In this document: positions 29,770 to 35,863 of the stretch, piece by piece
Position numbering within the stretch: position 1 is the stretch's first letter
How the letters are laid out: each line of letters opens with the position of its first letter
Assembly (NCBI GenBank): GCA_003138895.1
Contig: PLHJ01000005.1
Location: 3,729-67,728 of the forward strand
From: Acidimicrobiaceae bacterium
GTDB lineage: Bacteria > Actinomycetota > Acidimicrobiia > Acidimicrobiales > RAAP-2
Length of the DNA stretch: 64,000 bases
Direction of reading: 5' to 3'
Notes under the pieces: generated by a model
Database searches by the model: none
What the model was told of the DNA's origin: nothing
What the model saw: the letters and a program-made list of their open reading frames with translations, nothing else
Position numbers and translations under genes: made by a program

Positions 29770-30792
29770 GTGAGCCGACGCGTTGATTTACGAAGCGACA
29801 CCGTTACCCAGCCAACCCCCGCCATGCGTGAAGCAATGGCCACGGCAATCGTGGGCGACGATGGTTACGGCGAAGACGAGACCGTCACTGCACTTGAGCA
29901 CCTCTACGCCCAGATCGTCGGAAAGCCCGCCGCGGTGTTTGTTCCGTCTGGCGTTATGGCCAACCAAATCGCGATTCGAATCTTGACGAAACCCGGCGAT
30001 CTCATCTTGGCCGGGCACACCCAACACATGGTGAGTTTCGAAATGGGAGCGGCCGCACGAAACTCCGGTGTGCAATTTGCCTTGGTGGATGACACGAGTG
30101 GCGCTTTTGAATTAAGTGAGGTGCAACAAGTACTTGATGGCGAATACGACCATCAGCCGCACGTCGCCATGGTGAGTGTTGAAAATACTCATATGCCCTC
30201 GGGCGGAACTCCCTGGGACCTCGCCGCTCTGGAAAAACTCGCGGGTTCAATTGGTACTCGACCTATTCATATGGACGGGGCTCGACTGTTCAATGCCGTC
30301 GTGGCGACGGGAACCCCCGCGGCTTCGTACGCTTCGTCGGCGACGACGGTGATGTCGTGCCTGTCAAAAGGACTCTGTGCCCCCGTGGGTTCTGTGTTGG
30401 CGGGTCCGAGCGAACTCATGGACGAAGCTCGCATCGAACGAAAGCGACTTGGCGGGGCAATGCGCCAAGCGGGCATCATCGCGGCCGCGGGACTGCTGGG
30501 TCTCTCGACGATGACGGATCGATTGGCAGAAGATCACGACAAGGCACAACATCTCGCGCTCGCTTTCGCCGAGCGATTCTCCGAGAGTGAGTACAATCCC
30601 ATGAGTTGTCAGACCAATATCGTGGCCTTCAGTCATGAACGCGCTCGCGAACTCGTGTCGTTGTTAGAAGCGCGCGGTGTTGTCGGAGACACCATTGCAC
30701 CTACGCGAGTTCGATTCGTCACTCACGCGGACGTGAGTGACGCTGACGTTGACTTCTGCATCGACGCAATTCGGAACTTCACGTGGAACTAG
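29770..30792 (+). CDS. Low-specificity L-threonine aldolase / beta-eliminating lyase family
   Basis: VDLRSDTVTQPTPAMREAM, VGDDGYGEDETV, MDGARLFNA, SCLSKGLCAPVGSVLAG PLP-lysine. Confidence 0.93.
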   Translation: MSRRVDLRSDTVTQPTPAMREAMATAIVGDDGYGEDETVTALEHLYAQIVGKPAAVFVPSGVMANQIAIRILTKPGDLILAGHTQHMVSFEMGAAARNSGVQFALVDDTSGAFELSEVQQVLDGEYDHQPHVAMVSVENTHMPSGGTPWDLAALEKLAGSIGTRPIHMDGARLFNAVVATGTPAASYASSATTVMSCLSKGLCAPVGSVLAGPSELMDEARIERKRLGGAMRQAGIIAAAGLLGLSTMTDRLAEDHDKAQHLALAFAERFSESEYNPMSCQTNIVAFSHERARELVSLLEARGVVGDTIAPTRVRFVTHADVSDADVDFCIDAIRNFTWN

Positions 30793-31157
30793 TTTTCGAC
30801 GGCCAGTGTGGATTTTGTCGTCGGAGTGCCCAGTGGGCGAGGCGCCACTACCGAGGTGATTTACAACTGGTAGCGAACGCCGACGTGTCCAACGACGTGT
30901 TGCAACGTCGAAGTATTACGCGGGCTCAATTGGAAAGTGCCGTGTGGCTCTTGGCCCCGTTTGAAGAATGGTCGGGTTCTGTTGCGGTAGCGAAGGTATT
31001 GCAACGCTCCAAACGTCCGTGGCGCTGGCTGGGAATCACGCTGGCGTTACCTGGTGTTCGCCGAATTGCCAAAGTCGTGTACTGGGTGGTGGCTCGTGAA
31101 CGCGGGCGACTTCCGGGATCAAACTGTCAGGTTTCTGCACCTCGCCCACAGGGGTAA
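30783..31157 (+). CDS. DCC (DUF393) thiol-disulfide oxidoreductase-like protein
   Basis: LVFDGQCGFCRRSAQWARRH (DxxCxxC). Confidence 0.85.
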   Translation: MELVFDGQCGFCRRSAQWARRHYRGDLQLVANADVSNDVLQRRSITRAQLESAVWLLAPFEEWSGSVAVAKVLQRSKRPWRWLGITLALPGVRRIAKVVYWVVARERGRLPGSNCQVSAPRPQG

Positions 31158-31182: not shown

Positions 31183-32439
31183 ATGCAGCAAATTCTTCAC
31201 CTTTCCACGTTTCTTCGCCGTCCTATCTTCGATCGTGACGGTGACCGGATCGGTCGCGTCCAAGACCTCGTTGCACGTCTCGGATCTGATCCACACCCGC
31301 CCGTTGTTGGCGCTGTTGTTCGCATTGAGGGACGAAATACCTTCATCCCGATTCGAAAAATTGGTGGTCTCGCGCAGGGACGCATGACGTTTGAAGGTCG
31401 CCGCGTTGACCTTCGACGCTTCGAACGTCGTCCAGGCGAGCTCTTGCTCGCCGAAGACCTCCTCGCGAGAAATTCCATCAACCTGGTACGTGGCCGACTC
31501 ATCAGTGCGAACGAAATTGAACTGGCGGAGATTGACGGAAAGTGGGAAGTCGTCGCGGTTGATCCGGGTCGACGACCGCTGCTTCGTCGCATCTTTGGCC
31601 GCTTTGGGATTCGCGTACCTTCGGGACCGGTCGTGGACTTTGCTTCGATCGAGCCATTCTTTGGTCACGTACCTACGGCGCGACTTCGCATTCCGTATCG
31701 AAAGTTGGCGCGGCTGCATCCGGCACAAATTGCCGACCTCGTAGAAGCCGCCAGTCACGATGAAGGTGAAGAGATCATTGAAGCCGTAGGTCTAGACCGT
31801 GAGCTCGAAGCCGACGTCTTTGAAGAGTTGGACACCACGCATCAGTTGGAATTCATTGAGTCACGTTCGGATGTTGACGTCGCTCGTCTGCTCGGTCGTA
31901 TGGAACCCGACAACGCGGCCGACCTTATTAATGAATTCGATCAAGATCGTCGACTGCCTATCCTCGAACTCTTGCCTGAAGCACTCCAGCAAAAAGTCCG
32001 CAACTTGCTTTCCTACAATCCCGGTACGGCTGGTGGACTTATGAACCCAGACTTTGTTGCAGTACTAGCGACAGCCACGGTGGGAGAGGCGCTCGAGGCC
32101 ATTCGTTTGTCGTCGGCCCCCGCCGAAGCCCAGAACGTTGTCTTTGTTTTGGACGAACACGGCCAGCCCGTTGGCGCCGCTCCCATTGTGCGACTTGTTC
32201 GCGCGCCCGAACACGAGTTGGCGCTGTCGGTAGCTCGAACGCAGTTGACGCACGTGCACCCGCACTGGGACATTCACCGAATTTCGATGAAGATGAGTGA
32301 CTTCAATCTGACGGTCCTACCGGTGCTCGACGACGAGCACGGCAAAATGATCGGCGTAGTCACAGTGGACGACCTACTCGAGGAGATCCTGCCCCAGGGC
32401 TGGCGTCGCGAGTTCGGCATGCACACGGTGGATGAATAA
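31183..32439 (+). CDS. Soluble MgtE_N + CBS-domain protein with N-terminal PRC-barrel-like segment
   Basis: FLRRPIFDRDGDRIGRVQDLV; superhelical MgtE_N-like repeats (LLGRMEPDNAADLINEF), NPGTAGGLMNPDFVAVL CBS1, LPVLDDEHGKMIGVVTVDDLLEEIL CBS2; no TM helices. Confidence 0.88.
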   Translation: MQQILHLSTFLRRPIFDRDGDRIGRVQDLVARLGSDPHPPVVGAVVRIEGRNTFIPIRKIGGLAQGRMTFEGRRVDLRRFERRPGELLLAEDLLARNSINLVRGRLISANEIELAEIDGKWEVVAVDPGRRPLLRRIFGRFGIRVPSGPVVDFASIEPFFGHVPTARLRIPYRKLARLHPAQIADLVEAASHDEGEEIIEAVGLDRELEADVFEELDTTHQLEFIESRSDVDVARLLGRMEPDNAADLINEFDQDRRLPILELLPEALQQKVRNLLSYNPGTAGGLMNPDFVAVLATATVGEALEAIRLSSAPAEAQNVVFVLDEHGQPVGAAPIVRLVRAPEHELALSVARTQLTHVHPHWDIHRISMKMSDFNLTVLPVLDDEHGKMIGVVTVDDLLEEILPQGWRREFGMHTVDE

Positions 32440-32629
32440 CCGTGTCTCGCGTCGCCGTCAACGGTCTTGTTCTAAGGGGGACTCTCTGAAACCCCCAAGT
32501 ACCAACTCACACGTTTCACCTGCTCAGAAGCGGCGTCATCTGACGCGAAAGGACGGTTGCTAAGCGACTTCCGCGTGTCGTTGAGGTCGTTGACGTGCTC
32601 GACCACAACACATTGAAAGGAGGTTTGCC

Positions 32630-34207
32630 ATGAGCAACGAGCGGTCACAAAATGACATCGCCGGCGCGTTCGGTTCTATCAAAGAACACGACGTCGGATC
32701 ACGCAAAGGAGCCCGTGCACGCCTCTTGACCCTCGCCGCCATCATTGGCCCCGGTCTCATTGTGATGGTGGGGGACAACGACGCCGGTGGCGTCTCTACC
32801 TACGCGCAGGCTGGTCAAAACTTCGGCTACTCGTTGCTATGGACGTTGCCATTGCTGATTCCAGTGTTGATTGTGAATCAAGAAATGGTGGCCCGACTAG
32901 GAGCCGTCACTGGTGTGGGCCACGGCCGCGTCATTAAGGAACGCTTTGGTCGTCGCTGGGGGAATTTTTCAATTGGCATGATCCTTCTTCTCAATTTCTT
33001 GATCATCATCACAGAGTTCATTGGCGTGTCTTTGTCTATGGAGTACTTCGGTGTTTCTCCCTATATTTCTGTGCCCGCCGCCGCGTTAACACTGTTTGGG
33101 GTGACCGCTTCAGGTTCGTTCCAACGGTGGGAACGGTTCATGATGATTTTTGTCGCCGTCAATTTCTTTGTCATACCACTCTTGATTGTCACGCACCCTC
33201 ACGTGGGCGCAGTTTTCCATCACGCCGTCATACCCGGTATTCGAGGGGGAGTGAATTCCGCCGCGGTATTACTCATCATCTCAATTATCGGGACCACTGT
33301 CGCGCCTTGGCAGTTGTACTTTCAACAAAGCAACATTGTCGATAAGCGAATCACGCCGCGCTGGCTGAACTACGAACGAGTCGACACGATTATCGGGTCG
33401 TTCATTGTGGTGATTGGCGCTGGCGCGCTGATTGCTGCTGCGGCCGCTGGGCTGTCGGGACACGGGGGGACGACGGCGTACACGAGTGCGCTCGGGGTGG
33501 CGCGCGGGCTGCGTGCGCATGTCGGCTCCGCTTCTGGCACGTTCTTCGCCATTCTTTTGCTCAACGCCTCATGCATTGGAGCAGCGGCCGTGACGTTGGC
33601 GAGTAGTTACGCCCTGAGCGACCTTTCGGAAAAGCGACAAGGTCTCAACGTTCGTGTTCGCGACGCCAAGGCGTTCTTTGGCGGTTTCGCCGCCATGTTG
33701 GCCGTGGCAGGTTTTGTGACGTTGTTACCTGGTGCGCCGCTCGGACTCATCACGCTGGCCGTCCAAGCCATGTGTGGATTAATGCTTCCCAGTACGACGA
33801 TATTTGTTCTTCTGCTGTGTAACGACCGCGAGCTGATGGGTCCTTGGGTCAATTCGAAGTGGCTCAACGTTTTGGCCGTGGTGATTGTGGCCGTCTTGGT
33901 CGTATTGTCCATTGTTTTGATCGTCTCGACGCTCTTTACCTCACTGGACGTCGTGCGCCTTCTCGAAGATCTCGGCGGCGTGGCGGCGGCCGGGCTGCTC
34001 GTGGGACTTCCGATTGGCCTTCGACGAAGTGAAGCGCCTCGGAGTTACGACATTGCCCGCGTGGACTGGCGCACACCGCGAATGGCGCTACTTGCTCCGC
34101 CTCCGACGTCGAGGATCCGCCGTATTCTTTTCCGAGCGGTGGCGTCGTATCTGTTGATTGCGGGCACGGTACTTATCGTGCGTATCATTCAGCTCGCCAC
34201 GGCCTAG
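32630..34207 (+). CDS. Nramp/SLC11-superfamily divalent metal transporter, Nramp-related variant
   Basis: Multi-TM; GPGLIVMVGDNDAGGVSTYAQAG (TM1), GTTVAPWQLYFQQSNIVDK (TM6); SD aaaggagg. Confidence 0.88.
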   Translation: MSNERSQNDIAGAFGSIKEHDVGSRKGARARLLTLAAIIGPGLIVMVGDNDAGGVSTYAQAGQNFGYSLLWTLPLLIPVLIVNQEMVARLGAVTGVGHGRVIKERFGRRWGNFSIGMILLLNFLIIITEFIGVSLSMEYFGVSPYISVPAAALTLFGVTASGSFQRWERFMMIFVAVNFFVIPLLIVTHPHVGAVFHHAVIPGIRGGVNSAAVLLIISIIGTTVAPWQLYFQQSNIVDKRITPRWLNYERVDTIIGSFIVVIGAGALIAAAAAGLSGHGGTTAYTSALGVARGLRAHVGSASGTFFAILLLNASCIGAAAVTLASSYALSDLSEKRQGLNVRVRDAKAFFGGFAAMLAVAGFVTLLPGAPLGLITLAVQAMCGLMLPSTTIFVLLLCNDRELMGPWVNSKWLNVLAVVIVAVLVVLSIVLIVSTLFTSLDVVRLLEDLGGVAAAGLLVGLPIGLRRSEAPRSYDIARVDWRTPRMALLAPPPTSRIRRILFRAVASYLLIAGTVLIVRIIQLATA

Positions 34208-34217
34208 TGTCTAGCGA

Positions 34218-35033
34218 ATGACAACACGCCCGACCCTCGTTTGTGTGCACGCGCACCCCGACGATGAAGCGTTCTTTACGGCGGGCATCATGGCCCACTA
34301 CGCCGCCGAGGGTTACCGCGTAGTGCTTATTACCTGCACGAATGGACGACTGGGCATTGACGATCAGCCGTTGCCGGGCTTTATGCCTGGACATCACACC
34401 GCGCTGACGATCGCGACTCGCGCGAGCGAGCTCCAAGCCTCTGCATCGCTTCTTGGCGTCGAGCGAGTCGTAACACTCGGTTACGACGACTCCGGCATGA
34501 CGGGTTGGCCTCAGAACGATGACCCCGGCGCTTTTATGAGTTCCGATACGACAGCGGTCGCGGCCATAGTCGCCGCGATTTTGAATGATGAAGGCGCGAG
34601 CGTTGTTGTTACCTACGACGAATTTGGTTTTTACGGACACCCAGATCACATTAAGACGAATGAAGTCACTCGAGCCGCCATTGCACTTAGCCCCTCGGTG
34701 GAGCGTTTGTACTATCCCGTGGTACCCACGAGTGTCTTGCACGCTTTTGTTCCCACCGCGCAGTCCCAATCGGTGTATTTGCCGGCGTGGGTCATTGACG
34801 CGGGTGACGGCACAGCGGACGGCGACATAACGACCAAGATGGCGACCGAGAAGTACGTGGCGCTGAAACGAGCGTCGATGGCCGCTCACGCAACGCAGAT
34901 AGATAACCGCGACGTGGTCAATATGGACGACGAATTATTTACCCTGTTGTTTGGACGCGAGTATTACGTGCGAGCGTGGTCGCGTGACGAAACGAGCGGC
35001 GACGAATCGGATCTTTTTGGAGGATTAGCGTGA
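34218..35033 (+). CDS. PIG-L/LmbE-family deacetylase (copy 1)
   Basis: VHAHPDDEAFFTAG, TYDEFGFYGHPDHIKTNEV. Confidence 0.93.
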   Translation: MTTRPTLVCVHAHPDDEAFFTAGIMAHYAAEGYRVVLITCTNGRLGIDDQPLPGFMPGHHTALTIATRASELQASASLLGVERVVTLGYDDSGMTGWPQNDDPGAFMSSDTTAVAAIVAAILNDEGASVVVTYDEFGFYGHPDHIKTNEVTRAAIALSPSVERLYYPVVPTSVLHAFVPTAQSQSVYLPAWVIDAGDGTADGDITTKMATEKYVALKRASMAAHATQIDNRDVVNMDDELFTLLFGREYYVRAWSRDETSGDESDLFGGLA

Positions 35034-35863
35034 GCGAGTCGTTGACATTTTTAGCGGTGCACGCGCACCCCGACGACGAAGCCAGTTCGTCAGGTGGCGT
35101 CTTTCGGCTCTTGAAGGACCAGGGAGTTCGAACCGTACTCGTGACGTGCACGAACGGTGAGTTCGGCGATGCGGTCGGCGGTATCAAGCCCGACCAACCT
35201 GGACACGATCCCGACGCGGTCGCCATCTATCGAAAAGGTGAGCTCGAGGATTCGTGCAAGATTTTGGGGATTGACCGACTCGTCATGCTGGGTTATCGCG
35301 ATTCGGGAATGATGGGCTGGCCCCAGAACGACGATCCGAAGTGCTTTTGGTCCACACCCCTGGAAGAAGCCGCCGAAAAATTGGCCGCCATCTTGAATGA
35401 AGAACGTCCCCAGGTCATCATGACCTACAACGAAATTGGTTTCTACGGTCACCCTGACCACATTCAGGCGCACCGGATTACGTTGTCGGCGCTTGACCTG
35501 CTGGACTACCAACCCACGGTGTATTTCAACGCCATACCGGCGAGTGTGTTCGCACGTTTTCGTGAAGTTATTGAGGAATCACAAACTGAAGAAGAGAATG
35601 ATGAAGCCCGCGAGAGTGAAGAAGAGCAAATGGATCTCGGCACGCCAGACGAATTAATCGGCGCGGCCATCGACGTGACGAGCGTTGCCGACGCGAAATT
35701 CGATGCCCTCCAAGCTCACTCCTCGCAACTCGACGAATCGTTTTTTTTGCGGATGGGGCGTGAACGCTTCAAAGAGGTGATGGGCACAGAGTGGTTCGTT
35801 CGCGCCGTGAGCCCCTTTGCTCACGACGACGTGGTGACTGACTTGTTCGTCGATTACCGCTAG
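35030..35863 (+). CDS. PIG-L/LmbE-family deacetylase (copy 2; MshB/Mca-like)
   Basis: VHAHPDDEASSSGGV, TYNEIGFYGHPDHIQAHRI, GYRDSGMMGWPQNDDP. Confidence 0.94.
   Translation: MSESLTFLAVHAHPDDEASSSGGVFRLLKDQGVRTVLVTCTNGEFGDAVGGIKPDQPGHDPDAVAIYRKGELEDSCKILGIDRLVMLGYRDSGMMGWPQNDDPKCFWSTPLEEAAEKLAAILNEERPQVIMTYNEIGFYGHPDHIQAHRITLSALDLLDYQPTVYFNAIPASVFARFREVIEESQTEEENDEARESEEEQMDLGTPDELIGAAIDVTSVADAKFDALQAHSSQLDESFFLRMGRERFKEVMGTEWFVRAVSPFAHDDVVTDLFVDYR

Follow-up and report, generated by a model that had tools for sequence, protein, structure and literature searches.

The locus described here is probably a two-gene magnesium-homeostasis operon, consisting of an Nramp-related transporter of the NRMT type, a soluble MgtE-like sensor encoded directly upstream, and a separate leader element. 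This element, hereafter R1, lies between the two genes and is a candidate new cis-regulatory RNA. The window analysed is a 64,000-nucleotide stretch of an Acidimicrobiaceae contig (PLHJ01000005.1), in which both open reading frames were confirmed, at 31183-32439 and 32630-34207, both on the + strand. An earlier note on this DNA had proposed that the first gene encodes a detached MgtE sensor that gates or regulates the transporter encoded by the second, possibly for Mg2+. It was correct in outline and its interpretation is partly supported by our results. Its headline is not new, since both the pairing and the split-sensor idea have been published: according to Shin et al. (2014), the majority of NrmT genes adjoin a gene for an MgtE cytoplasmic domain, for which they proposed a role in feedback regulation or as a chaperone (PMC4072509). 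What looks new is the near-exclusion of full-length MgtE, the profile of residues kept and lost in the sensor, an NRMT subclade with an extended C-terminus and, most importantly, R1, to which the earlier note makes no reference. The locus contains the following features:

31183-32439, + strand: soluble MgtE-like sensor gene, 418 aa, with a PRC-like N-terminus, MgtE_N and a CBS pair but no transmembrane pore (Pfam and AlphaFold model)
31183-31572, + strand: N-terminal PRC-barrel-like region, aa 1-130, beta-rich in the model (PF05239 in 21 of 32 relatives at E ≤ 0.01)
31714-32022, + strand: MgtE_N domain, aa 178-280, holding D211, D243 and D247, the equivalents of E59, D91 and D95 of Thermus thermophilus MgtE (TtMgtE)
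32038-32391, + strand: CBS pair, about aa 286-403; D397 (site Mg4) retained, Mg5 altered (N375/E400), ATP-site residues absent
32465-32521, + strand: R1, conserved intergenic element and candidate cis-regulatory RNA 5' of NRMT (conservation; no Rfam match)
32476-32496, + strand: R1 helix P1, GGGGG (32476-32480) with CCCCC (32492-32496) and CTGAAA in the loop
32498-32503, + strand: conserved AGTACC of R1, with AGTA invariant and CC in at least 90% of 59 sequences
32504-32515, + strand: R1 hairpin P2, variable in sequence, three pairs in the window
32567-32623, + strand: possible expression platform, with anti-Shine-Dalgarno ACTTCC (32567-32572), a hairpin at about 32583-32606 and Shine-Dalgarno AAAGGAGG (32616-32623)
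32630-34207, + strand: NRMT transporter gene, 525 aa, with a C-terminal extension of ~86 aa and two extra predicted helices

The transporter belongs to the NRMT family

The downstream gene encodes an Nramp-like protein (PF01566, E 7.5e-75), as had been read from the sequence. The canonical Nramp/MntH motifs DPGN and MPHN are absent from it, and it scores 115.8 bits against the NCBIfam MntH model, the cut-off of which is 430. Alignment with EleNRMT places the metal site at D51-A-G-G54 in TM1 and TTVA225-PWQ in TM6, where EleNRMT has DAGG and TTIA-PWM. Hence the reading of APWQ in TM6 given in the earlier note stands, whereas the TM1 counterpart of DPGN is DAGG (DxxG) and not DNDA. The protein has the traits described for NRMTs (PMC8806188), namely DxxG in TM1 with TxxA/T in TM6, replacement of the helix 6b histidines (MPHN..H becomes APWQ..Q) and a retained alpha3 glutamate (E129). 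The top sequence match in the PDB is EleNRMT (E 2.6e-60), followed by the Bacteroides fragilis Nramp (2e-23) and by MntH structures at 1e-10 or weaker; EleNRMT is also the top fold match (E 6e-17, TM 0.86 on target). In a tree of 71 proteins, for which the program flagged long branches, the window NRMT falls with EleNRMT in a 48-row clade (support 99/95), apart from the Mn/Fe Nramps; ScaDMT, DraNramp and the B. fragilis Nramp lie outside. The suspected relation to NRMT is thereby confirmed, and this placement, together with the shared site letters, identifies the "altered" motifs as the published signature of the NRMT family.

In binding-site motif, clade, fold and the presence of an adjacent gene for an MgtE cytosolic domain, the window protein resembles the known NrmT/NRMT proteins of Clostridium acetobutylicum (Ca_c0685) and Eggerthella lenta (EleNRMT, 7QIA) (PMC4072509, PMC8806188). 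It differs from them in two respects: R1 takes the place of the M-box in the window, and its subclade has a C-terminus longer by ~86 residues, in which two more helices are predicted and the linker residues W480, R481 and P483 are invariant. A second NRMT subclade in the class, recognizable by the letters TTITPY, lacks this extension. The extra helices (34060-34204) and their W-R-x-P linker are a possible docking site for the sensor. In the explanation that we consider probable overall, this NRMT would import Mg2+, and probably Mn2+ too, through an SLC11 fold with a wide DAGG/TTVA site.

The upstream gene encodes a soluble MgtE-like sensor

The domain content reported for the upstream protein was borne out by Pfam, with one MgtE_N match (E 3e-19) and a CBS match in two stretches (E 5.5e-14, the best at aa 350-403). 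The protein therefore has the MgtE_N domain and CBS pair of MgtE channels. The MgtE channel domain PF01769 has no match in it, nor anywhere else in the window genome, and the protein reaches 96 bits against the mgtE equivalog model, which has a cut-off of 232.75. In the window protein a PRC-barrel match (aa 7-32, E 0.0018) falls short of the Pfam cut-off. The AlphaFold model (mean pLDDT 79) has MgtE cytosolic domains as its best fold matches; its low pTM (0.43) means that the model does not settle how the domains are arranged.

We mapped the sensor residues onto T. thermophilus MgtE across 95 relatives, taking the Mg4, Mg6 and Mg7 ligands at the N/CBS interface from PMC5882242 and the ATP-binding residues of the CBS domains from PMC5529423. 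In the window sensor the Mg2+ ligands are D243 and D397 (Mg4), D247 (Mg6) and D211, the latter in place of E59 (Mg7). The equivalents of TtMgtE D91 (Mg4) and D95 (Mg6) are kept in 95/95 relatives, that of D247 (Mg4) in 94, the remaining one showing a gap, and E59 is replaced by D in all 95. Site Mg5 is altered: 93 relatives have N for D226 and 85 have E for D250. Of the five ATP-contact residues compared (Y170, R187, D188, N203 and F227), the window sensor keeps none. Compared with T. thermophilus MgtE, the sensor thus shares the N domain and CBS pair, with residues of Mg4, Mg6 and Mg7 kept or conservatively replaced, but lacks the channel domain, the ATP-site residues and the plug helix that closes MgtE, and has an additional PRC-like N-terminus. 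The best reading of these residues is a putative Mg2+-dependent N/CBS clamp without ATP tuning. If the sensor acts on NRMT, it must do so through new contacts.

Other soluble MgtE_N proteins were found in the class sample, where 14 of 43 matches have no Nramp neighbour. Actinobacterial proteins of this kind beside DUF1003 genes are alike in domain make-up, but have no adjoining NRMT. One example is the MgtE_N/CBS protein at L138:5649-7363, which adjoins a DUF1003 gene on the same strand.

Conservation of the pair and near-exclusion of MgtE

The earlier note had asked whether the pairing is conserved in relatives. Of the 80 sensor loci found, 77 extend far enough to show the next gene, and in every one of these it is NRMT, directly downstream on the same strand, which places the pairing far from chance. 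The 148 class genomes contain 29 sensor-NRMT pairs; in 27 the two genes share a strand and the sensor precedes NRMT. A further 40 NRMT loci, nearly all from the same family, have an adjacent sensor in 34 cases; of the remaining six, two are truncated by a contig edge. Nramps of the class sample without a sensor neighbour nearly all differ from NRMT in their site letters (DPSG, DPTT, DIGx and others), the exception being L114, which has the NRMT letters; a later family set yielded three more NRMT-type genes without such a neighbour (L182, L197 and L198). In the TTITPY clade and in L193-L196 the end of the sensor gene all but reaches NRMT, and a leader would not fit between them.

The search for gene fusions, also proposed in the earlier note, came back empty: no MgtE-NRMT fusion was found among the sensor loci or the 40 further NRMT loci. 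Long open frames in L087, L090 and L096 were considered as fusions and rejected, the readings being in different frames.

The MgtE channel domain is present in only 1 of the 29 genomes with the pair, versus 85 of the 119 without it (Fisher p 6e-12, a value that ignores kinship and overstates independence because the genomes are related). This near-exclusion fits a replacement of MgtE by NRMT plus a detached sensor. No anticorrelation was found between the pair and CorA, which occurs in 13 of the 29 genomes with the pair.

In the window genome, which is 86% complete, CorA and MgtE were not found, the best match of a P-type ATPase to MgtA scores 355 bits, under the cut-off of 610.75, and a CNNM/CorC protein is encoded. 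Because of the latter gene and of the completeness of the genome, we do not claim NRMT as its sole Mg2+ importer. Across 61 genomes of the family, Nramp is found in 58, CNNM in 58, and CorA over cut-off in 27.

M-box and R1 occupy the same intergenic position

An M-box riboswitch (ykoK leader, RF00380) lies between the sensor and NRMT genes in four relatives (L081, L100, L191 and L192), with scores of 127-140 bits for a gathering score of 44. The NRMT genes of these relatives belong to the same clade as that of the window, and an M-box in this position would control NRMT. Shin et al. treat an upstream M-box as a mark of Mg2+ specificity (PMC4072509), and the possible link to Mg2+ raised in the earlier note is strengthened by these four loci. 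The M-box covariance model has no match in the window, nor at the R1 region of L003, nor, at E ≤ 0.05, in four further relatives with long gaps. The gaps of L070, L071 and L080, which match neither M-box nor R1, contain a strong hairpin (of the GTCCGG..CCGGAC type) and a GGAGCAGCGCTG-like block in common with the region 3' of the M-box in L081 and L100; these are possibly a third leader type or M-box remnants.

In the window, the gap between the two genes measures 190 nt, and R1 occupies 57 nt of it, starting about 25 nt past the sensor stop codon. The R1 consensus is CGTTC(T/A)AAGGGGGnCTnTCTGAAACCCCCnAGTACC. A tolerant pattern retrieved it from the window and from 77 loci, 78 sequences in all, with L001 overlapping the window, and in 76/76 loci with both genes visible it lies inside the gap, on the NRMT strand and in no other place. 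Pairwise identity is 0.84 in the R1 core versus 0.52 in the remaining gap. With a covariance model built from 59 sequences, 21 of 395 class genomes were positive, with one match each, all between the sensor and NRMT genes, as were 8 of 397 phylum genomes, all from the same two genera and again with a single match per genome. A further genus of the family has weaker copies (L173, L174, L175 and L202) at this position; in the genomes scanned, R1 occurs within one family only. The possibility that R1 is a general element was rejected, with 0 copies outside the sensor-NRMT gap in the class and phylum scans. An Rfam search at R1 gave no match in the window, and none for the consensus-like copy of L003 even at E up to 10. 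R1 and the M-box thus share their position, but R1 is about 57 nt long, compared with about 170 nt for the M-box, and matches no Rfam family.

R1 most likely acts in the mRNA

R1 combines conserved sequence with covarying helices 5' of a single gene type, as riboswitch classes do. Helix P1 is paired in 97.3% of cells, and one of its pairs changes from G-C to A-U on both sides in three sequences. Hairpin P2 is paired in 64% of cells, all four of its pairs show double changes, and its best-hairpin score is 8.74 versus 5.24 ± 0.56 in shuffles. The covariation score of the whole structure (0.145) is above all 500 shuffles and all slid versions; these controls, for covariation and hairpin alike, model kinship incompletely.

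An alternative explanation, which we consider unlikely, is that R1 is a double-stranded DNA operator, an imperfect GGGGG/CCCCC palindrome bound by a metal-dependent repressor. P1 is nearly invariant and may be such a palindrome, its double changes from G-C to A-U are compatible with a dimeric operator as well, and the distance between R1 and the NRMT start leaves space for a promoter. However, the 11-nt spacer of P1 is itself conserved and asymmetric (CTGAAA), a further one-sided block, AGTACC, is conserved next to it, and P2 keeps pairing while its letters vary. Moreover, the same gap carries an RNA switch, the M-box, in relatives, and R1 begins very close to the sensor stop codon. The asymmetric invariant letters and P2 favour the view that R1 most likely acts in the mRNA.

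In many members the Shine-Dalgarno is predicted to pair with an upstream CCTCC-like stretch (probability of a paired Shine-Dalgarno 0.86 versus 0.78 in shuffles); this predicted pairing is seen in the window and in L003, being clear in the latter. Compared with shuffles, the window leader does not fold better (z -0.54), and that of L003 folds modestly better (z -2.03). No consensus fold of the 3' part of the leader was predicted from a MAFFT alignment, and the expression platform is hence a suggestion only. Control of translation by a hidden Shine-Dalgarno is our leading guess, and the predicted pairing would suit it.

We tentatively propose that, in this lineage, R1 may have taken over from the M-box 5' of NRMT as a riboswitch of a new, small, Mg2+-sensing class. 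Two Mg2+ feedbacks would then act on NRMT, an RNA switch on its synthesis and a detached MgtE sensor on its activity. If Mg2+ is its ligand, R1 would join the mgtA leader and the M-box as a further riboswitch class for this ion, and the locus would be a case in which one regulatory RNA has taken the place of another. In any case, R1 is a compact, precisely located and readily testable element.

Proposed mechanism and alternative functions

We infer that Mg2+ is the substrate of the transporter and the ligand of both the sensor and R1. In the cytosol, Mg2+ would bridge the N and CBS domains and compact the sensor, as in MgtE, and the compacted sensor would probably bind and inhibit NRMT already in the membrane. 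We propose that, through such inhibition, NRMT and the sensor together take the place of the single-chain MgtE channel. NRMT expression would be set separately by the leader between the genes, an M-box in some relatives and R1 in the window. At low Mg2+ the leader would be open, NRMT made, the sensor loose and the transporter active; at high Mg2+ the leader, M-box or R1, would shut NRMT synthesis and the sensor would inhibit the NRMT already present. Several observations count against this explanation. In the one pair tested by Shin et al., from Acidobacterium capsulatum, co-expression of the partner did not improve Mg2+ rescue (PMC4072509); the plug helix is absent, Mg5 is partly changed and no fusion was found. 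In addition, the CNNM/CorC gene and the 86% completeness mean that NRMT may not be the only magnesium route, CorA accompanies the pair in 13 of 29 genomes, the window has no M-box, and R1 comes from one family.

The lack of effect of the partner in A. capsulatum also bears on whether the sensor touches NRMT at all. It could instead be a Mg2+-responsive regulator or chaperone of something else, merely co-transcribed with the transporter, a scenario to which we give a lesser but appreciable chance. Related soluble MgtE_N proteins do exist without NRMT, one of them beside a DUF1003 gene, and the PRC-like N-terminal part could serve another partner. Against this, the two genes stay adjacent in two NRMT subclades that differ in gene spacing, down to the near-overlap of the TTITPY clade. 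The ion itself can also be questioned. The A. capsulatum NrmT rescued a Mn2+ transport defect and behaved as a Mn2+ transporter; together with its partner it likewise rescued this defect, and it restored Mg2+ growth only at low millimolar Mg2+ (PMC4072509). The study of EleNRMT likewise followed its Mn2+ uptake (PMC8806188), and the window has no M-box. The pair might then handle Mn2+, as suggested for A. capsulatum, with NRMT as a Mn2+ importer and the MgtE-like protein answering to Mn2+. We regard this as improbable, since four relatives have an M-box immediately 5' of an NRMT gene from this clade, the window NRMT has alanine at the TM6 position where a methionine would favour transition metals, and the pair and MgtE channels are almost mutually exclusive. 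Import of Mg2+ under control of the detached sensor and the leader is the explanation that we consider most probable.

A search of the literature after Shin et al. (2014) found no work on the MgtE-like partner of NRMT. Many uncultured Acidimicrobiia have the pair and no full-length MgtE, and CorA too is missing from about half of the family members sampled, which makes them good systems in which to ask whether a detached sensor controls an unrelated transporter.

Neighbouring genes

Two tandem PIG-L-like deacetylase reading frames follow NRMT (34218-35863) with a 4-base overlap, the first backed by Pfam and the second by eye only. On the other side, a gene for a DCC1-like thiol-disulfide oxidoreductase (30783-31157), on the same strand, ends 25 bases 5' of the sensor gene.
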